Positions 7,112-16,668 of a stretch of DNA of 36,527 nt are shown piece by piece. Position 1 is the first letter of the stretch; every line of letters begins with the position of its first letter. This DNA is from Gemmatimonadota bacterium (GTDB lineage Bacteria; Gemmatimonadota; Gemmatimonadetes; Longimicrobiales; Gaopeijiaceae). The notes below the pieces were generated by a model. That model was not told where the DNA came from. It was given only the letters and a program-made list of their open reading frames with translations, and made no database searches. The stretch is from positions 1 through 36,527 of the forward strand of contig QJYK01000169.1 of assembly GCA_003248075.1 (NCBI GenBank), in the 5' to 3' direction. Position numbers and translations under genes: made by a program.

Positions 7112-8128
7112 TCACCCTGCGGCGCCGGTCGTGGCGCCCAGCTCCCGAGCCAGGAATCGCGCGCCCTCCCGCTCTCCCCAGAAGGCCGGACGCACCGGGG
7201 TGCCTTCCAGGAATCCCACGTGCCCGCCGCGGGCCGAGATGCACACCGAGAAGGTCGGATTCGCGCGCAGCGCGCGTTCAGGAAGCGCCTCATGCGGAAG
7301 GAAGGGGTCGTCGCGGCTCTGCAGGACCAGCGTGGGCACGCCGACGCGGTCGAGAAAGGCGGCGCTACTGCATTCCCGGTAGTATTCTGCCGCATCGCCG
7401 AAGCCGTGCAGCGGCGCCGTGGCGACGTCGTCGAAGGACCAGAGCGTGCGGCAGCCGAGGGCTGCGTCCACGTCCACCAGCGAGGACAGCTTGTGCCGCT
7501 TCGCCCGCATCTTCCGCTTGAGCGAGCGCAGGAAGTACCCGGTGTAGAGGCGGCCCATGGGTGTGCTTTCGAGGAGCGCCGATCCGGCCGCCAGGTCGAA
7601 GGGCACCGACATGACCACGGCGGCGTCGAGCACCGCCTGGCCCCCGTCCGTGCGTTCGCCCATGAGCTTCAGGAGCGCGTTGCCGCCGAGGGAGAAGCCC
7701 CACGCCCCGAAGGCGCACCCCGGGAAGCGGGATCGCAACCGCTCGAGCGCGAGGCCTGCGTCGCCGGTCTCTCCCGAATGGTAGAAGCGGGGAAGGAGGT
7801 TCATCTCCCCGGAGCAGCCCCGGAAGTTCATGGCCACGGGCCGGACACCGGCCCGCAGGAGCTCGCTGCACGCCGACTGGACGTAGCGTCTCCGCGATGA
7901 GCCCTCCAGTCCGTGCAGGATGAGCACCACGGGGGCCCCCGGCGCGGCGCCGACGGCGAGGTCCACGTCCAGGAAGTCGCCGTCGGGGAGCGTCCAGCGC
8001 TCCCGGGCCATGGGAGGTGCGGACGACGGCCTGAGCACCCTCGCCCAAAGGGTCTGCCCGTGGGGACCCGAGGCCCAGCGGGCAGGGCGAAACGGACAGG
8101 GCTGCATGGGTCGGGCGGCCTGCGTCAT
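7112..8128 (-). CDS. YheT-family alpha/beta hydrolase
   Basis: A 338-aa cytoplasmic serine hydrolase of the YheT/ABHD1-3 type. The start resembles YheT (GPHGQTLWARVL, then LPDGDFLDVD). An LHGLEGSS oxyanion loop is at about 71-78 and FRGCSGEMN at 102-110. The nucleophile elbow GFSLGGN has S146, the acid lies in SRDDPF (D273 or D274) and the base in GGHVGF is H303, so the triad is complete. The family acts on esters, and human relatives are phospholipases or lipases; the substrate here is unknown. ATG 8128 is used; ATG 8107 is an alternative and the open frame extends to 8230. No strong ribosome site helps choose. It converges on the 169-aa gene with 10 bp between stops. Confidence 0.9.
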   Translation of the reverse strand: MTQAARPMQPCPFRPARWASGPHGQTLWARVLRPSSAPPMARERWTLPDGDFLDVDLAVGAAPGAPVVLILHGLEGSSRRRYVQSACSELLRAGVRPVAMNFRGCSGEMNLLPRFYHSGETGDAGLALERLRSRFPGCAFGAWGFSLGGNALLKLMGERTDGGQAVLDAAVVMSVPFDLAAGSALLESTPMGRLYTGYFLRSLKRKMRAKRHKLSSLVDVDAALGCRTLWSFDDVATAPLHGFGDAAEYYRECSSAAFLDRVGVPTLVLQSRDDPFLPHEALPERALRANPTFSVCISARGGHVGFLEGTPVRPAFWGEREGARFLARELGATTGAAG

Positions 8129-8450
8129 CGTCGTGGGCGGGGGAGGGCAGGGTACGCGGCGCTTGCCGGGCGCGGACTGGCTCCCAAGGTAACCGGAGGG
8201 TGTCCGCCTCCGACACGGGGCTGTGTCCAACGGCCACGGACCTCGCCACGAGAACGCGTGCGGTCACGACCCCCAACCACCAGCGAGATAATCGTTTACG
8301 AACGACGTGAGTCCGTGGCATGGACCTTTCTATCGAGCGGCGGTTGGGGGGCCGCTCAGGGAGGGTTCGATCGGCGGTTCGCATGAAACGGCGCCTTCCG
8401 CCCGGCCGTAGGGTCGGGAACACCGAACGAGACTCGGGAGGATGATGACG
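8129..8450. other. Gene-free divergent region with candidate regulatory dyads
   Basis: This 322-bp stretch separates the minus-strand hydrolase from the plus-strand repeat-protein gene. I see no convincing ORF or RNA gene in it. It holds a long imperfect inverted repeat (8270-8281 with 8339-8350), a local AT-richer patch with GATAAT at 8287-8292, and a dyad TCGTT-TACG-AACGA at 8292-8305. A GGGAGG ribosome site is at 8436-8441. It probably carries promoters for one or both flanking genes. Confidence 0.5.
8270..8350. repeat. Inverted repeat flanking an AT-rich dyad
   Basis: CCCCCAACCACC at 8270-8281 is matched at 11 of 12 positions by the inverse of GGCGGTTGGGGG at 8339-8350, with a 57-bp spacer. 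The spacer contains the perfect small dyad at 8292-8305 and the -10-like GATAAT. The arrangement could be paired operator sites that loop, or a structured leader. Confidence 0.4.
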
Positions 8451-9701
8451 ATGGGTTCGATCGTGTGGGCGGTTCTGGTGGCGGCGTCGGTCTCTTCGGG
8501 ACGCCAGCAGGAGATCGGAGGCGACCGGCTCTACGGCCGCGTGGTCACGGCGGGAGGCGCGGTCTACGAGGGGTTCCTTCGCTGGGACCGGAACGAGGGG
8601 AGCTGGGCCGATCTGCTCAACGGTAGCAAGCAGATGCCCTGGGAGAACGAGCGCGATGCCGAGCGACTCGACCCGGACCGTGACCGTCGTGACCGAGGTG
8701 GCGGGATCAGCATCTTCGGCCTTCGAATCTCGTGGTCCGAGGAGGACCAGGCGTATCCGTCGGCGGCCACCTCCGGAATCCGCTTCGGTCACCTTCAACG
8801 GCTCGAGGTGATCTCCGGGGACCGGGCGCGGCTGTTGCTCAAGTCCGGCCAGGAGCTGGAGCTGGAAGGCGGTTCCACCGATCTTGGGGACGAACTGCGC
8901 GGGCTGGTCGTGGACGACCCGGAGCGAGGGGAGGTCGAGCTGCGCTGGCGTGACCTGGACGTGATCGACTTCATGGAAGCTCCCGCGCAGGCGGTGCCTT
9001 CGTCTCCGAGGCTGTACGGAACGCTCACCGCTCGGGGCGGACTGCAGTTCACGGGATTCGTGTCGTGGGACGTCGACGAGATCCTGGGGTCCGACATCCT
9101 CGATGGTGAGGAGAGGGGCAGGGACCGGAAGATCCGTTTCGACCGCATCGCCGCCATCGAGCGGGCCGGCCCCTCCGCCGCCATCGTCGTGCTGCAGAAC
9201 GGCGAAGAGGTCGAGCTCCGTGGGTCCAACGACGTGAACCGGTCCAACCGGGGCGTCTCGATCTCCGACCCCGCGCTGGGGCAGGTCCAGGTGGGATGGG
9301 ACGATCTGGAGTCGGTCGTGTTCGAGCCGCCGCCCGCCGATGCGGCCCCCTACCGCGCGTTCGACGGGGGCAGGCGCCTGTACGGTACCGTGGAGACCGA
9401 GGACGGCGCGCTGCTGAGCGGCACGCTCCGGTGGGACAACGACGAGGAATACAGCTGGGAGATCCTCGACGGTCGCGACCACGACGTGGACTTCGACATC
9501 GAGCTGGGCCACGTTGCCTCGATCCGGAACCTGGGCTCCTGGGGCGCGGAGGTCACGCTCCTGGACGGCCGGACCTTCGAGCTGAACGGGTCCAACGACG
9601 TGGACGATCGCAACAAGGGTGTCTTCGTGACCACGGAGGACGGCGAGACCCTGTTTGTCGCCTGGCGCGACTTCCGGGAGGTCACGTTCGAACGCCGCTG
9701 A
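8451..9701 (+). CDS. Secreted protein made of three homologous repeats (unknown function)
   Basis: A protein of about 416 aa that I do not recognise. A signal-like N-terminus (MGSIVWAVLVAASVSSG) precedes three tandem copies of one module. Each opens with RLYG, continues with a G.L.WD (or G.V.WD) strand, then an ILDG-type segment, a hydrophobic strand, an acidic L.L.GSNDV-type loop and a closing GV.....W.D...V.FE. Copies 2 and 3 share GSNDV and N(R/K)GV; copy 1 has GGSTDL and an insertion of about 40 residues. The mature protein looks all-beta and acidic, so it is probably periplasmic or surface-exposed. ATG codons lie at 8442, 8445 and 8451. The GGGAGG site at 8436-8441 is best spaced (9 bases) for 8451. 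Its TGA overlaps the next ATG by one base, so it is coupled to the beta-barrel gene. Confidence 0.82.
   Translation: MGSIVWAVLVAASVSSGRQQEIGGDRLYGRVVTAGGAVYEGFLRWDRNEGSWADLLNGSKQMPWENERDAERLDPDRDRRDRGGGISIFGLRISWSEEDQAYPSAATSGIRFGHLQRLEVISGDRARLLLKSGQELELEGGSTDLGDELRGLVVDDPERGEVELRWRDLDVIDFMEAPAQAVPSSPRLYGTLTARGGLQFTGFVSWDVDEILGSDILDGEERGRDRKIRFDRIAAIERAGPSAAIVVLQNGEEVELRGSNDVNRSNRGVSISDPALGQVQVGWDDLESVVFEPPPADAAPYRAFDGGRRLYGTVETEDGALLSGTLRWDNDEEYSWEILDGRDHDVDFDIELGHVASIRNLGSWGAEVTLLDGRTFELNGSNDVDDRNKGVFVTTEDGETLFVAWRDFREVTFERR
8526..9008 (+). repeat. Protein repeat copy 1 (RLYG module, with insertion)
   Basis: The first copy begins RLYGRVV and ends near the VIDFME segment. It is 161 codons to the start of copy 2. 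The excess over copies 2 and 3 is mainly a charged insert rich in Asp and Arg before GIRFGHLQRLEV. Confidence 0.7.
9009..9374 (+). repeat. Protein repeat copy 2 (RLYG module)
   Basis: The second copy begins RLYGTLT and spans 122 codons. It has FTGFVSWD, ILDGEE, IRFDRIAAIER, a GSNDVNRSNRGV loop and a closing VGWDDLESVVFE strand, which align one for one with copy 3. Confidence 0.75.
9375..9698 (+). repeat. Protein repeat copy 3 (RLYG module)
   Basis: The third copy begins RLYGTVE, spans 108 codons and ends the protein. It has LSGTLRWD, ILDGRD, IELGHVASIRN, GSNDVDDRNKGV and VAWRDFREVTFE, parallel to copy 2. Confidence 0.75.
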
Positions 9702-11959
9702 TGCCGCCGCTCGTCCGCGGGCCGGGGCTCGTCGCACGAACTGCGCTCGTCCTGCTGGTAGCGGTCACGGGATCGCCGAGCAGGTGCGGCGCCCAGGAGG
9801 GTCCCTACCGGGACGCGGCCGCGCGGGCGCTGCACGAGGCGGCCCTCGCCGCTCGAGAGCGTCGCAGCGATTCGGTCGTCCGCTATACGGCGCTCGTCCG
9901 CCAACGCATCGGCGCCGCGCTACGCATGCCGCTCAAAGACCGGACGCTGTTCCGTAGCGAGGCGGCGTACCGCGTCTTCTGGAGTCGGTCGGGGCAGACG
10001 CTGGTGCAGGTGCTGGCGCTCCGCGAGCAGACGCCCCTCGGCGTGAGCAGGGGACAGACCCACCAGGGACTCTTCGACCAAGCCTTCGATCCCGGGAACG
10101 ACCGGCTCCTGTTCGGGTTCGTGGATCCGGACGAGGACATGGGTCGCCCCGGGGAGGACGACTTCTGGTTCGAGCATCCTCTGATGCCGGAGTACCGGGA
10201 CTCCTATCGCTTCGCCACGGGGGACACGCTCGTCCTCACCCTGCCCGACGGGCGCCGGCTGGAGGCGGTCGAGCTTCAGGTGGTACCGGTCGTCGCCGAC
10301 GTCCATCGCATGTCCGGATCCCTGTGGATCGTACCGGAGTCGGGTGCGTTGGTGCGTGCCGCCTATCGGCTCTCCGAGACCTTCGACGCGTTCCGCGACA
10401 TCGCCGACTTGCGGATGGAGGAGGACCGGGACCTCAAGTTCATGCCCGGCCTGCTCAAGCCCTGGACCTTCGACCTTTCGCTCATCGCGGTCGACTACGC
10501 TCTGTGGGACTTCGACGTGTGGCTGCCGCGCTCCATGCGCGCCGAAGGGGTGGCGACGGCGGGCATCCTCAAGGCGCCCGCGGCCGTGGATCTCTCCTAC
10601 GAGATCGAGGACGTCGTCACCGAGGCCGACCTGGCCGCGGGCGCGGACGACGGGGGCACCGTCGCGGACGTCCGCTTCCAGACCCTGGCGGAGGCGATGA
10701 CATACCTGGAGCGGGTCGCAGGTGAGCAGGACGTTCCCTACGTGGTCGAGCAAGGCTGGACCGAGAGGCGAAACGGGCGAGGTCGCCGGATCGTGCGCTA
10801 TCTCGTCCCCGAGGATCCGGCGGTGCTCGCGACCAGCCCCGACCTTCCCCCGCCGGTGTGGCAGGACGGTCCCGGCTTCGCCTCCCGCGAGGAGATCGAC
10901 GAGCTGTTCGGAGGTCTTGCGGACCTCCCTGCGCCGCCGCTCGCCGGGATGCCGACGACCTTCCGTTGGGGGCTCCAACGCCCCGACCTGGTTCGGTACA
11001 ACCGCGTCGAAGCCCTGTCCGTCGGCGCCCGGGGTCAGGTGCGGCCGAACTCGCCCCTGGGTCCGCTGTCCCTGACGCTCACGGCGCGTCTCGGGACGGC
11101 CGACCGCGTGCCCAACGTGCGCCTGGATGTCACGCGGGAGGGGTTGAGGCGGCGCTTCACGTGGAGCGTGTTCCACGAGCTCGCCGCCGTCCAGGAGGAG
11201 CGGAGGGCGCTCGGCCTCGGCAACTCGATCACCGCGGCGCTCTTCGGCCGCGACGATGGCGACTACTTCCGTCGCTCCGGGGCGTGGCTCGAGTGGAGCC
11301 CTCCTTCCGCCGATCGCACGTGGTTCCGTGTGCGGGCGCTGGCGGAGCATCACCGACCCGTGGACGCGGGGACGGGATTCGCCCTCTGGCACGTGGCCGA
11401 CGATGCCTGGGCGTTCCGGCCGAACCTCGAGGCGGAGAAAGGGTGGGAGCTCGGCGGACTCGTGACCCTGTCGCCGTACTGGGGCGGAGATCCGCGGTCG
11501 GCCCAGGGCGGGGTCGAGCTGTCCGCGCGCGCCTCGGGCGGTGACTTCGAGTACGCCAGCGCTTCGCTTGAGTCACGCCTGGCCATTCCGCTTCCCGCGG
11601 ACCTGCGCGTCGCACTGGAGGGGGGGGCGGGGATGAGCTGGGGAAGCCCGCCGCCACAGAGGCTCTGGCTCATGGGAGGTGCGGGCACGCTACGCGGCTA
11701 CGGGCCACGTGCGATGGAGGGAGAGACCTACTGGAGGGCGCGGGGAGAGCTCGCGCGCCAGCACGCGTTCGGCGCCGTGTCCCTCTTCGGCGACCTGGCT
11801 TGGGCGGGCGCGAGGGACGACATCCGCCTCGACGGGGCGCTGGCGGCGGCCGGTCTGGGCCTGTCGCTCGTGGACGGGCTGATCCGGCTCGACGCTGCCT
11901 GGGCGCTGCGGGTGCAGAGGGGCTTCCGACTCGAGGCGTATCTGGACGGCATCCTCTGA
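9701..11959 (+). CDS. Outer-membrane beta-barrel protein (DUF5686/Omp85-like)
   Basis: A 752-aa exported protein with an N-terminal hydrophobic signal (residues 9-24). Residues of about 30-420 form a periplasmic region with mixed strands. From about 430 the sequence becomes alternating amphipathic strands typical of a barrel (YNRVEALSVGARGQV, PLGPLSLTLTARLG, SLESRLAIPLP), ending LEAYLDGIL. The phrase LMGGAGTLRGYGP resembles the L6 loop (V/L)RG(F/Y) of the Omp85/BamA/surface-antigen group, and YNRVE resembles the DUF5686 barrel start. It may be an outer-membrane assembly or secretion barrel, but the substrate is unknown. ATG 9701 overlaps the stop of the repeat-protein gene (TGATG), implying translational coupling and a shared role. 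The longer upstream frame overlaps that gene and is rejected. Confidence 0.8.
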   Translation: MPPLVRGPGLVARTALVLLVAVTGSPSRCGAQEGPYRDAAARALHEAALAARERRSDSVVRYTALVRQRIGAALRMPLKDRTLFRSEAAYRVFWSRSGQTLVQVLALREQTPLGVSRGQTHQGLFDQAFDPGNDRLLFGFVDPDEDMGRPGEDDFWFEHPLMPEYRDSYRFATGDTLVLTLPDGRRLEAVELQVVPVVADVHRMSGSLWIVPESGALVRAAYRLSETFDAFRDIADLRMEEDRDLKFMPGLLKPWTFDLSLIAVDYALWDFDVWLPRSMRAEGVATAGILKAPAAVDLSYEIEDVVTEADLAAGADDGGTVADVRFQTLAEAMTYLERVAGEQDVPYVVEQGWTERRNGRGRRIVRYLVPEDPAVLATSPDLPPPVWQDGPGFASREEIDELFGGLADLPAPPLAGMPTTFRWGLQRPDLVRYNRVEALSVGARGQVRPNSPLGPLSLTLTARLGTADRVPNVRLDVTREGLRRRFTWSVFHELAAVQEERRALGLGNSITAALFGRDDGDYFRRSGAWLEWSPPSADRTWFRVRALAEHHRPVDAGTGFALWHVADDAWAFRPNLEAEKGWELGGLVTLSPYWGGDPRSAQGGVELSARASGGDFEYASASLESRLAIPLPADLRVALEGGAGMSWGSPPPQRLWLMGGAGTLRGYGPRAMEGETYWRARGELARQHAFGAVSLFGDLAWAGARDDIRLDGALAAAGLGLSLVDGLIRLDAAWALRVQRGFRLEAYLDGIL

Positions 11960-12023: not shown

Positions 12024-14600
12024 ATGCCCATGTCTTCGCGATTCGTGTCACCCCTCCGCGCGCTTCCGCTCGCTCTGCTGCTGGCGTCCTGCGAGCCCAA
12101 CCCGGCGCCGCCCCCCGGTCCGGGGGTGTCCTGGGAACTCGCGCAGGATCGGGCCGCCACGCTCTCGGAGGTTCGCTACCGCGTCGAGCTGACCATCCCC
12201 GAGGCTTCCTCCGCTCCGATCGAGGGCCACACCGTTCTGCTCTTCGAGCGGTCGGATCCGGAGAACCGGGACCTGGTCATCGATTTCCTCGACCCCGGAG
12301 CGCGGGTGAGCGCGGTGCAGGTGAACCGCGCGGACGCGGCGTGGAGCCCGTCCGACGACCACATCGTGGTCCCCGCGTCGGCGCTCGTCGACGGGCTCAA
12401 CGAGGTGCGGCTCGACTACCGCGCCGGCGACGAGGCACTCAACCGGAACGAAGACTTCCTCTATACGCTCTTCGTCCCGGACCGGGCGCACTTCAGTCTT
12501 CCCGTCCTGGATCAGCCCAACCTCAAGGCCACGGTCGAATGGACCCTCACCGTTCCGGCCACGTGGAAGGCGGTAGCGAACGGACCGGTGGCCGAAGAGA
12601 TCCAGAGGAACGGCACGAGGACGCTGCGCTTCGCCGCTTCGCGGCCGATTCCGACGTACCTCTTCGCCTTCGCGGCCGGCCGGTTCCAGGAGGACTACGA
12701 GATGGTGGACGGTCGGGCGATCCGGATGTTCCACCGGGAGACCGATACGGCGAAGGTGGCCCGCAACCGGGACGCGATCTTCGAGCTTCACGGTCGGGCG
12801 CTGGCGTGGCTCGAGGACTACACCGGCATCCCCTATCCATTCCAGAAGTTCGACTTCGTGCTGATTCCCTCCTTCCAGTACGGGGGCATGGAGCACCCCG
12901 GAGGCATCCTCTACAACGCGTCCGGACTCATGCTGGACGAGAGTCCGACGCAGGCGCGGATCCTGGGGCGGGCCAGCGTGATTGCGCACGAGACGGCGCA
13001 CATGTGGTTCGGGGATCTCGTCACCATGAACTGGTTCGACGACGTGTGGACCAAGGAAGTGTTCGCGAACTTCATGGCGGCCAAGATCGTGCACCCGTCC
13101 TTTCCCGAGGTGGATCACGAGCTGCGGTTCCTGACCGCCCACCATCCCGCGGCGTACGGGGTGGACCGTACCTCGGGCGCCAACGCCATCCGGCAGCCGC
13201 TGGAGAACCTGCGCGAGGCCGGCACGCTGTACGGCGCGATCATCTATCAGAAGGCGCCGATCGTGATGCGGCAACTGGAGGCCCGGGTGGGCGAGGGGGA
13301 GTTCCGTGACGGCCTTCGCGAGTACCTGACGACGCATTCCTACGGAAACGCCACCTGGCCCGACCTGGTGACGCTGTTGGACCGTCGCTCGCCAGACGAC
13401 CTCTCCGCGTGGAGCCACGTCTGGGTCGAGGAGCCGGGACGTCCGACGGTGCGCGTGCGGCGGGACGGGGACGACGTCGTGTTGACCCAGGAAGACCCAC
13501 AGGGCCGGGGGCGCGTCTGGCCGCAGACCCTGCACGTGCTCCTGGCCTACGGGGCACGGGATACGCTGGTGACCGTGGAGCTGGGCGCGGCACCGGTCCG
13601 GATCGAGGGTGCGGCCTCGGGGGGACTCCGCTTCGCGCTCCCCAACGGCTCAGGGCTCGAATACGGCCTCTTCCTGCCGGACGACGCGAGCCTCGAGTCG
13701 CTGGAGCGCGACGCGCACGGCCTGGCCTCGCCACTGGCCCGGGGCGCCGCCTGGGTGACGCTCTGGGACCAGGTCCTCGAAGGGAGGCTCGCACCGGACG
13801 AGTTCCTGACCCGTGCCCTGGATGCGCTGCCGGAAGAGGACGAAGAGCTGAACCTCGCCACGCTCCTGGGCTATGTGTCGCGCACCTTCTGGGACCTGCT
13901 GTCCGAAGAGGTGCGCACGAGCCGTGCACCGGAGGTGGAGGGGGTGCTCTGGGCGGGTGTGACCTCGACCCGACCCCCCACCGCCCGCGCCGCATTCTTC
14001 GGGACCTACCGCTCCATCGCGATCAGCAGCGAAGGAACGGCCCGGCTGCGTCGCCTGTGGGCCGGCGAGGAGGCGGTCCGGGCGCTGCCCCTCTCCGAGA
14101 CGGATCGGACCGGCCTCGCACAGGGGCTCGCCCTGCGGGAGGTTCAGGGATGGAGTGGCATCCTCGACGAAGAGGAACGCCGGATCACGAACCCCGACCG
14201 GCTCGCCCGCTTCCGTTTCGTCCGTCCGTCCCTCGACGCGGATCCCGCAGTGCGTCGCTCCTTCTTCGAATCGCTCGCCGATCCCGCGCGTCGGGAGCGG
14301 GAGCCCTGGGTGCTGGATGGCCTCGACAACCTCCATCATCCACTTCGGGCGCGCGCCTCGCTGCCGTTGGTCCGCCCGGCCCTCGAGATGATCGAGGAGA
14401 TCCAGCGCACGGGAGACATCTTCTTTCCGGGGCGGTGGCTGGACGCGACGCTGGGCGGCCACAGCGAGCCCGAGGCGGCCGAGACCGTGCGGCGCTTCCT
14501 GGACGAGCGCCCGGATCTGCCGCCGCGCCTTCGCGGAAAGGTGCTGCAGTCCGCCGACGGGGTCTGGCGCGCGGCTCGCATCGTCCATGGCTGGCGGTAG
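12024..14600 (+). CDS. M1-family zinc aminopeptidase, lipoprotein
   Basis: An 858-aa aminopeptidase N-type metallopeptidase that trims N-terminal residues from peptides. The N-terminus is a lipoprotein signal with lipobox LASC at C23, so the enzyme is membrane-anchored outside the cytoplasm. After the N-terminal beta domain comes the exopeptidase motif GGMEHPGG (E290; the usual GAMEN Asn is His here). The zinc motif HETAH has H322, E323 and H326, with E345 as third ligand 18 residues later in WTKE. The C-terminal half is the helical ERAP1-like domain. ATG 12024 and ATG 12030 are both possible, with no clear ribosome site. Its end overlaps the next gene by 14 bp. Confidence 0.93.
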   Translation: MPMSSRFVSPLRALPLALLLASCEPNPAPPPGPGVSWELAQDRAATLSEVRYRVELTIPEASSAPIEGHTVLLFERSDPENRDLVIDFLDPGARVSAVQVNRADAAWSPSDDHIVVPASALVDGLNEVRLDYRAGDEALNRNEDFLYTLFVPDRAHFSLPVLDQPNLKATVEWTLTVPATWKAVANGPVAEEIQRNGTRTLRFAASRPIPTYLFAFAAGRFQEDYEMVDGRAIRMFHRETDTAKVARNRDAIFELHGRALAWLEDYTGIPYPFQKFDFVLIPSFQYGGMEHPGGILYNASGLMLDESPTQARILGRASVIAHETAHMWFGDLVTMNWFDDVWTKEVFANFMAAKIVHPSFPEVDHELRFLTAHHPAAYGVDRTSGANAIRQPLENLREAGTLYGAIIYQKAPIVMRQLEARVGEGEFRDGLREYLTTHSYGNATWPDLVTLLDRRSPDDLSAWSHVWVEEPGRPTVRVRRDGDDVVLTQEDPQGRGRVWPQTLHVLLAYGARDTLVTVELGAAPVRIEGAASGGLRFALPNGSGLEYGLFLPDDASLESLERDAHGLASPLARGAAWVTLWDQVLEGRLAPDEFLTRALDALPEEDEELNLATLLGYVSRTFWDLLSEEVRTSRAPEVEGVLWAGVTSTRPPTARAAFFGTYRSIAISSEGTARLRRLWAGEEAVRALPLSETDRTGLAQGLALREVQGWSGILDEEERRITNPDRLARFRFVRPSLDADPAVRRSFFESLADPARREREPWVLDGLDNLHHPLRARASLPLVRPALEMIEEIQRTGDIFFPGRWLDATLGGHSEPEAAETVRRFLDERPDLPPRLRGKVLQSADGVWRAARIVHGWR

Positions 14601-16668
14601 AACGCCGGCCTGGGCGCTCGCGCTGGCGCTGTGCGCGCCGGCGGGCTGCCAGACGCCGGGACGCGGCGGACCCCCCGCCGACCCGCCCGTCCTCCGGGGC
14701 CGCGACGGCCTGCTCGCCGACACGGCGCTGCAAGCCGTGGTCGAGCGTCAGGTCGAGCGCGACGCACCGGCGTTGTTGGCCCGCCTCGGAGACTCGCGCG
14801 TGCCCGTCCGGGCCCGGGCCGCCCTCGCCCTCGGCTCCCTTCAGAGCACGGAGGCGGTCCCGGCGCTGGTAAGGGCCCTTTCCGACCCGAGCGCGTCGGT
14901 GCGCCGGGACGCCGCGTTCGCGCTCGGCCAGGCCGGGGTGGGAAGTGCGGCCCGTGCGCTGGAGACCGCGCTTTCGAGCGAGGAGGACCGCGCCGTTCGT
15001 GCAGAGATCTTCGAGGCGCTGGGCAAGCTCGGGGTCCCGGAGAGCCTGGACGCCCTGATGGCGGCGCGGGTCCATCCCGCGGAGGAATCGATACGGGCTC
15101 TGGCGCTTTCCAGGCTCGGCGCCGTGGGAGGCGTCACCTCGCGCGAGTCGGTCGAGGAGCTCGTCGCCCTGCTGGACGCGGCCGACCCGCGGACGCGTGA
15201 GCGTGCGGCGTACTTCTTCGGTCGTGCGCAGTCACCGGCGCCGTGGGCGTCCGCTGCCGAGCAACTTCGTGAGGCCCTGCGTCGCCGCGGTGGGGACGAC
15301 CCCGCGGCCATGTACCTCGCCCAGGGCCTCGGCCGGCTCGGAGACGATCGGGACGCGGACCTCCTCCTCGACTGGGCGGAGCACGCAGAGGATTGGCGGA
15401 CCCGTGCGAACGCGACGGTCGCCGTGGGCGGTCTTCCCAGGCTGGACCCGCGATCCGTGGACCGACTCATCGAACGGCTCGACGATCCATCGGATCACGT
15501 GGCCATCGCTGCCGCCCAGGCGCTGGCGGGCCATCAGCGACCGGAGGACGCCGTGCGCACGATCGCCGCGTGGGTCGGTGCCCGAGGTGACCGTTGGCAG
15601 GTCTCGGAGCCCCTGGTCGGGCTGCTCGCCGCCGCGGGGCACCACGAGGCCGTGCTGGCATGGGTGGACGCGCGCGATCCCGTCGAGCCCTGGGCCTACG
15701 CCGCCGCCCTGCGCGCGCTCGCGGCGCTTCCCGGTCGAGAGGCGTTCGAGCGACTCACGGACGCGGCTTCCTCGCCGTCGGACCGGACGGCGGACGACGC
15801 GATCCGGGCGTTGGGCAGCCGATGGAGACGCGAGCGCGGGGATCCGCTGCTGAAAGACGACTACGTCCGCGCCTTCTCCCTCGCGCTGAGGCGGGGCGAG
15901 CCGCGGTCCGCGGCCATCCCGGCCGGCGTCCTGGCGGATTCCGTTCTGGGGGATGCGGGCTTGGACGCGCTGGAGGGCGCATATGCCACCTGGCGCGCTC
16001 CGGACGACGTGGAGCGCATGCGTACGGTGTTGCGTGTCCTGGGGCGGAGCGGCAACCCGCGCGTCGAGCGTATCCTGCTCGCGGTCGACGATCCCGAGCT
16101 CCTGGACGCGGCGTCCCGGGCGATTTCCGAGCTCCGCGGTGAGGAGCCCGATCCGACGTCGGCGACGGACGAGCCGTCGACGCTGCTGGCGAGCGAGGCA
16201 CGTCTGGACTGGGGCTATTTGTCCGGTCTCGGAGAAACGCCCCGACTGGTGCTCGACACGGACCGGGGCCGTGTCGTCGTACGCCTGGACCCCGAGGGAG
16301 CCCCGCAGACCGTCCAGACGATCGCCCGATTCGCGGAGCAGGGACGCTACGACGACGTGGCGTTCCATCGCGTCGTCACGAACTTCGTCATCCAGGGGGG
16401 AGACTTTTCCCGGGGCGACGGCTCGGGGGGCCCGGGCTTCTCGATCCGAAGCGAGCTGAGCGAGACGCCCTACCTGCGCGGGACGATCGGCATGGCCTCT
16501 GCGGGCAAGGACACCGAGGGCTCGCAGTTCTTCATCACGCATTCGATGCAGCCCCACCTCGATGGCGGGTATACGCCGTTCGGTTGGGTGGTCGAGGGCA
16601 TCGACGTCGTGGACAGAATCCTGGTAGGCGACCGCATCCTGCGCGCGCAGATCCAACGTGGACACTGA
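14587..16668 (+). CDS. HEAT-repeat/cyclophilin fusion lipoprotein (peptidyl-prolyl isomerase)
   Basis: A 693-aa lipoprotein with lipobox PAGC at C21. Residues of about 45-540 are helical HEAT-like repeats (for example VRARAALALGSL and VRRDAAFALGQA), a scaffold usually used to bind proteins. Residues of about 550-690 are a cyclophilin domain with FHR (R595), Q603 in IQGGDF and QFFITHS (F649), matching CypA R55, Q63 and F113, so isomerase activity is likely. Tyr replaces the CypA H126 position, as in many bacterial forms. Its ATG lies 14 bp inside the end of the M1 peptidase gene, and the next gene starts 11 bp before its stop. That suggests a coupled periplasmic module in which proline isomerisation and peptide trimming act together (inference). 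Confidence 0.9.
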   Translation: MAGGRTPAWALALALCAPAGCQTPGRGGPPADPPVLRGRDGLLADTALQAVVERQVERDAPALLARLGDSRVPVRARAALALGSLQSTEAVPALVRALSDPSASVRRDAAFALGQAGVGSAARALETALSSEEDRAVRAEIFEALGKLGVPESLDALMAARVHPAEESIRALALSRLGAVGGVTSRESVEELVALLDAADPRTRERAAYFFGRAQSPAPWASAAEQLREALRRRGGDDPAAMYLAQGLGRLGDDRDADLLLDWAEHAEDWRTRANATVAVGGLPRLDPRSVDRLIERLDDPSDHVAIAAAQALAGHQRPEDAVRTIAAWVGARGDRWQVSEPLVGLLAAAGHHEAVLAWVDARDPVEPWAYAAALRALAALPGREAFERLTDAASSPSDRTADDAIRALGSRWRRERGDPLLKDDYVRAFSLALRRGEPRSAAIPAGVLADSVLGDAGLDALEGAYATWRAPDDVERMRTVLRVLGRSGNPRVERILLAVDDPELLDAASRAISELRGEEPDPTSATDEPSTLLASEARLDWGYLSGLGETPRLVLDTDRGRVVVRLDPEGAPQTVQTIARFAEQGRYDDVAFHRVVTNFVIQGGDFSRGDGSGGPGFSIRSELSETPYLRGTIGMASAGKDTEGSQFFITHSMQPHLDGGYTPFGWVVEGIDVVDRILVGDRILRAQIQRGH

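Follow-up and report, generated by a model that had tools for sequence, protein, structure and literature searches.

A three-module exported repeat protein encoded directly upstream of an Omp85-superfamily barrel: a conserved, apparently facultative pair in Gemmatimonadota

Layout of the locus

The window discussed here is a stretch of 36,527 nucleotides (nt) from a Gemmatimonadota bacterium (contig QJYK01000169.1, assembly GCA_003248075.1), and all coordinates are positions in it unless another locus is named. It contains a gene for an exported protein made of three copies of an all-beta module, followed on the same strand by a gene for an Omp85-superfamily barrel protein, and the stop codon of the first overlaps the start codon of the second. 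An earlier note on this DNA had described both the repeats and the overlap, and had proposed that the coupling is obligate, with the repeat protein serving as passenger, plug or surface partner of the barrel. The observation is real, conserved and unnamed; the obligate barrel-and-passenger reading is unsupported. The features of the two genes are listed below, with residues of the repeat protein numbered from 8442.

8436..8441, + strand: GGGAGG, a putative Shine-Dalgarno-like sequence nine bases before ATG 8451
8451..9701, + strand: three-module exported repeat protein (alternative start 8442)
8451..8521, + strand: signal-peptide-like N-terminus, judged by eye; modelled as a helix at 2-19 and lacking a lipobox cysteine
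8526..8981, + strand: module 1, residues 29-180, insertion included
8634..8762, + strand: insertion within module 1, approximately residues 65-107; residues 84-103 fall under 50 in the predicted local distance difference test (pLDDT)
9009..9332, + strand: module 2, residues 190-297; best fold match is the ImpE domain of HsiE1
9375..9692, + strand: module 3, residues 312-417
9699..9703, + strand: TGATG junction, in which the last base of the repeat-gene stop TGA (9699-9701) is also the first of the barrel ATG (9701-9703)
9701..11959, + strand: Omp85-superfamily barrel protein, 752 amino acids; its long N-terminal region gave no match to POTRA
11690..11701, + strand: LRGY, presumed Omp85 loop-6 signature, residues 664-667; LRG[YF] in 24 of 26 aligned relatives
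11786..11794, + strand: F-x-D, presumed second Omp85 signature, residues 696-698; kept in 25 of 26 aligned relatives

The open reading frame of the repeat gene extends from 8442 to 9701 on the + strand (419 codons), and ATG 8451, which has the GGGAGG 5' of it, is the likelier start. The single base shared at 9701 is the overlap described in the earlier note.

Three homologous modules with a predicted ImpE-like fold

The proposal that the protein consists of three diverged copies of one module is borne out. Pairwise alignments of the modules scored 158, 98 and 176, far above the maxima of 59, 56 and 51 obtained in 500 shuffles each, and module-against-module comparison of profiles gave probabilities of 99.3-99.9%. 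The RLYG motif stands at residues 29, 190 and 312, which confirms the spacing of 161, 122 and 108 codons first noticed in the sequence. The module itself is all-beta and measures about 107 residues; module 1 owes its extra length to an insertion that is absent from paralogues with an N-terminal anchor-like helix, such as L051. Among the residues invariant between modules 2 and 3 are W25, D26, D28, E29, N79, D80, N85 and W102. The invariant residues form two acidic or polar loop motifs, which could conceivably bind metal.

An AlphaFold2 model of the whole repeat protein, made from 19 sequences, had a mean pLDDT of 86.4 and a predicted template-modelling (TM) score of 0.82. Ten strands occur in the same order in all three modules, so that the structural likeness of the repeats is seen in the prediction as well, and the insertion in module 1 is poorly predicted. 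The model of module 2, based on an alignment of modules 2 and 3 from the 19 proteins (37 rows), reached a pLDDT of 93.5. In structure comparison the top matches of the module were both of the solved ImpE proteins, namely HsiE1 (Z 7.4-7.9 over 96-97 residues at 2.5-2.8 Å) and VPA1032 (Z 6.1), and the next unrelated row had a Z of 4.3. When the whole protein was compared, ImpE was again best for residues 188-297.

The module thus superposes in its entirety on the ImpE domain of TagJ/HsiE1 and VPA1032 (PDB 4uqx, 4uqy, 4uqz, 1zbp), with Z of 6.1-7.9. HsiE1, however, has an N-terminal tetratricopeptide repeat (TPR) part followed by one ImpE domain and belongs to type VI secretion, whereas the repeat protein is exported and has three modules and no TPR. 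Kinship in sequence with ImpE was looked for and not found: at E up to 1 the ImpE profile (PF07024) matched none of the 19 repeat proteins, it had no match in the window's genome, and profile-profile comparison with four ImpE proteins was at the level of chance. The likeness predicted by the models is one of shared fold only, without detectable sequence kinship. In the report on HsiE1 (PMC4239648), its all-beta ImpE barrel is described as holding an extended peptide partner, HsiB1, along a groove that begins between the barrel and two preceding helices. Sm/LSm barrels and small exported SH3-like lipoproteins (for example 2k57, 3bdu and 2ra2), which are single small domains, show a partial and weak likeness below that of ImpE, the Sm-like barrels matching part of the module with Z of about 3-4 over about 50 residues.

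The earlier note had been unable to assign the repeat protein, and it fits no family that we searched. No Pfam family scored above 13.8 bits with the window protein, no NCBIfam family was matched, and profile searches of the PDB with the whole protein or a single module returned nothing at E up to 10. Weak matches among the 19 relatives to YcxB (13/19, best 7e-4), TIGR02603 (10/19, best 5e-4) and ExtJ (9/19, best 8e-5) are too weak to give an identity and fit look-alikes among small beta-barrels. A beta-propeller for the whole protein was also rejected, the Foldseek rows having TM scores of about 0.1 that we judged meaningless. A literature search found no paper on outer-membrane repeat proteins of Zixibacteria or Gemmatimonadota.

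An Omp85-superfamily barrel with a different N-terminal region

Judged by its sequence, the downstream protein can safely be placed in the Omp85 superfamily, with an N-terminal region of a different kind. Its LRG[YF] and F-x-D motifs are what we take to be the Omp85 signatures (loop-6 RG[FY] and F-x-D). The window barrel scored 18.7 bits against the Pfam Omp85 profile (PF01103), whose cut-off is 24; 17 of 26 barrel relatives matched this profile at E up to 10 (best 3.1e-7), and the cut-off was clearly passed by two of ten rescanned relatives (L112 with 26.6 and L113 with 30.7 bits). The set of 26 barrels (A2) leaves out those of L060, L065, L126 and L127, and set A1 is without L043. A profile search with the barrel found TamA structures at E 1.4e-3. 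The ShlB/FhaC profile was weakly matched by 8 of the 26 relatives, in L113 with 23.8 bits against a cut-off of 22.7, and not by the window barrel. In its C-terminal barrel region the protein resembles TamA and FhaC/ShlB, by the Omp85 profile, the ShlB profile among its relatives, the TamA structures and the two signatures. It differs from them in its N-terminal region, which has no POTRA match, and in having a partner unlike TamB or a passenger of two-partner secretion (TPS). POTRA domains are present in most, not all, Omp85 members; they were absent from the 12 families matched by the 26 barrels at E up to 10.

The earlier note had called this protein DUF5686/Omp85-like, and the second half of that label stands. 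DUF5686 is the weaker label: part of its profile (PF18939) was matched by 10 of the 26 relatives (best 1.3e-8, 34.2 bits), the curated cut-off of 39.2 bits was reached by none of those with bits given, and the window's own barrel gave no match up to E 10. A literature search on the term DUF5686 found no paper.

Conservation of the pair

The co-occurrence in relatives on which the earlier note had made its pairing depend was found, across one family. Among 395 genomes of the window's phylum the repeat protein is present in 62 and relatives of the barrel in at least 320, and a barrel gene lies directly 3' of the repeat gene on the same strand in at least 54 of at least 93 places, in at least 51 of the 62 genomes. 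The best four repeat and the best two barrel candidates per genome were scored, so that the pairing count of 54 and the presence counts of 93 and 320 are all minima; for the pair count, coordinates were transferred by hand from match listings, with one place per gene and N-terminal split pieces dropped.

The junction itself is conserved. We compared 30 paired repeat genes, five or six of them near-copies from one genus, with 16 unpaired Gemmatimonadota genes and 16 genes from other phyla, rows ending before profile position 395 having been dropped. In-frame barrel starts that overlap the end of the repeat-gene stop, or lie within 12 nt before it, are found at 26 of these 30 junctions. The stop stands in an ATGA or GTGA context in 22 of the 30 paired genes, against 3 of the 16 unpaired Gemmatimonadota genes (Fisher p = 6e-4) and 2 of the 16 from other phyla (p = 1e-4). 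Genera that differ in their other flanking genes still keep the junction, and a tandem repeat-barrel-repeat-barrel arrangement is found in G326, G114 and G399.

In a phylogenetic tree of the repeat proteins all 30 paired rows fall within the window's family, and the anchored copies and those of other phyla form separate clades. The label "anchor" followed a crude string rule, which placed L092 and L068, both judged by eye to be anchored, among the unpaired; L017 is cut short by the end of its contig. Rows under 300 profile positions were left out of the tree, as were L043 and L081, which have internal stop codons.

Occurrence of each protein without the other

Each protein also occurs without its partner, and the pair therefore looks facultative, not obligate as had been proposed. 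The following neighbours in the window bear on this comparison.

7112..8173, - strand: YheT-like (PRK10985) hydrolase, divergent; conserved upstream neighbour
12024..14600, + strand: M1-family aminopeptidase with a lipoprotein-like start (LLASC)
14587..16668, + strand: HEAT-repeat and cyclophilin protein with a lipoprotein-like start (PAGC)

A genome of the same genus, G001, keeps the order AI-2E transporter, 6466 protein, YheT-like hydrolase, barrel, M1 aminopeptidase, HEAT-cyclophilin protein and EamA; only the repeat gene is missing, and it has left no remnants. The M1 aminopeptidase and the HEAT-cyclophilin isomerase are kept behind the barrel in G001 and in several genera. No remnant of the repeat gene was found at E up to 10 in five lone-barrel loci. 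In L109, from the same-genus genome without the repeat gene, the bases around the barrel start at about 6129 (ACGATGGG.TCG) resemble window positions 8448-8459, around the start of the repeat gene, as if a deletion had joined the repeat-gene start to the barrel.

The window's genome encodes a second repeat protein (L051), which has the N-terminal anchor-like helix and no barrel alongside. Anchored copies form one clade (support 100/99), and a neighbour gene common to them was sought and not found. In the anchored paralogues L057, L058, L061, L063 and L066 a short N-terminal tail precedes the membrane helix. Its ED-K/R-N-like motif (EDAKNL, for example) points to a cytoplasmic tail that is conserved.

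The repeat family is also found in Calditrichota, Acidobacteria and other Gemmatimonadota, and in Zixibacteria it is present in 90 of 132 genomes, 86 of these with one match. Upstream of the Zixibacteria gene are conserved genes for a LysM/transglycosylase protein, an S49 peptidase (SppA), HU and a protein whose sorting tail is type-IX-like, and downstream, on the opposite strand, are TPR, PurE and PurD genes. Among 19 genomes with repeat loci a long barrel match was found only in the Gemmatimonadota one. None of the 18 others had a full-length match; 12 matched over a short C-terminal stretch with no more than 51 bits, as would be expected of generic Omp85 proteins, and 6 did not match.

Several copies depart from the usual form. 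A divergent copy in G055 (L070, 7665-8960) has a lipoprotein-like start (VGAGCGGSD) unlike that of the other copies, and two short proteins of about one module (L031 1258-1839 and G295:C133:918-1181) have 194 and about 114 residues. The repeat genes L081 and L043, in G159 and in one Zixibacteria assembly, are broken by stop codons, through either decay or assembly errors.

Possible role of the repeat protein

To judge by the distribution of the two proteins, the repeat protein has an independent role and the barrel can do without it. At the same time, the overlap that has been kept, the retention of the pair among differing neighbours and its tandem duplication indicate that co-production has been selected in one family. 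A soluble periplasmic accessory, co-translated with the barrel and recruited in that one family of Gemmatimonadota, fits best, since it accommodates both, and it is our preferred reading with a confidence that falls somewhat short of even.

Such an accessory could work as follows. One message would give barrel and accessory by coupled translation; the signal peptide would export the repeat protein, which would fold as three tandem ImpE-like beta modules. The family would be an older one with an envelope role independent of the barrel, and in the one family of Gemmatimonadota a copy would have come to lie before the barrel gene, its product being made in tight stoichiometry with the barrel as a dispensable accessory. 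There its probable docking site would be the barrel's long, periplasmic N-terminal region, or it might hold extended segments of the barrel's clients, by analogy with the ImpE domain of HsiE1 and its extended peptide (PMC4239648).

A number of observations weigh against this reading. Overlapping genes are common in operons and are no proof of contact between their products. The repeat gene alone is missing from the G001 locus, which keeps the barrel, and the barrel therefore does not need the repeat protein. Distances in the repeat protein and the barrel correlated with r 0.32, no better than with unrelated neighbours (12 loci, uninformative). Mean identity is 41% among paired repeat copies against 58% among copies from other phyla, a faster divergence that may equally be relaxed constraint, and in G005 the repeat copy has diverged strongly, with its barrel still near 50%. 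Finally, the match to ImpE is one of fold only, and a Z below 8 can reflect a common arrangement.

Alternatively, the two gene products may have nothing but their expression in common, the repeat protein having an envelope role independent of the barrel (for example in wall binding or structure), the barrel working as a separate machine and the overlap being ordinary operon packing. We consider this a real possibility and rank it close behind the accessory. Each partner is common without the other, the two show no excess co-divergence, and the Zixibacteria gene adjoins lytic-transglycosylase/LysM, SppA, HU and sorted secreted protein genes instead of a barrel. Ordinary packing, however, does not readily explain a junction that is kept across genera while other flanking genes differ, or a pair duplicated as a unit in three genomes.

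The possibility that the barrel moves the repeat protein to or through the outer membrane, as in TPS, seems improbable. An exported protein that adjoins and appears to be co-translated with an Omp85-superfamily barrel would suit such a passenger, as would the ShlB/FhaC matches in 8 of the 26 barrels, with L113 over the Pfam cut-off; but no TPS domain was matched in any of the 19 repeat proteins (E up to 1) and no POTRA in any of the 26 barrels, the repeat family is common in genomes that yielded no barrel, the barrel likewise in genomes with no repeat protein, and some paralogues have an N-terminal membrane-anchor-like helix instead. That the repeat protein acts as a periplasmic plug or gate for the pore of the barrel is very improbable indeed, since stoichiometric co-translation and nothing else speaks for it, while a plug fold is not evident in three rod-like tandem modules and the barrel does without the repeat protein in G001 and most of the phylum. 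Nothing was found that favours the passenger, plug or surface partner of the earlier note over a soluble periplasmic accessory.

Taking the soluble accessory one step further, the repeat proteins might be the first members of a new class of Omp85 barrel partners in the periplasm. They would be rods of ImpE-like modules for holding extended polypeptide, which Zixibacteria use without a barrel, some Gemmatimonadota tether by an N-terminal helix and other Gemmatimonadota co-translate with a barrel dedicated to them. We regard this wider proposal as doubtful. If it is true, Omp85-type barrels outside the Proteobacteria would possess a soluble partner in the form of a beta-rod, which resembles neither TamB nor BamB nor a TPS passenger, and a testable outer-envelope role could be assigned to a family found in most of the Zixibacteria genomes searched. 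Regardless of its outcome, a conserved envelope family that is absent from Pfam and NCBIfam has now been named and given a predicted fold.

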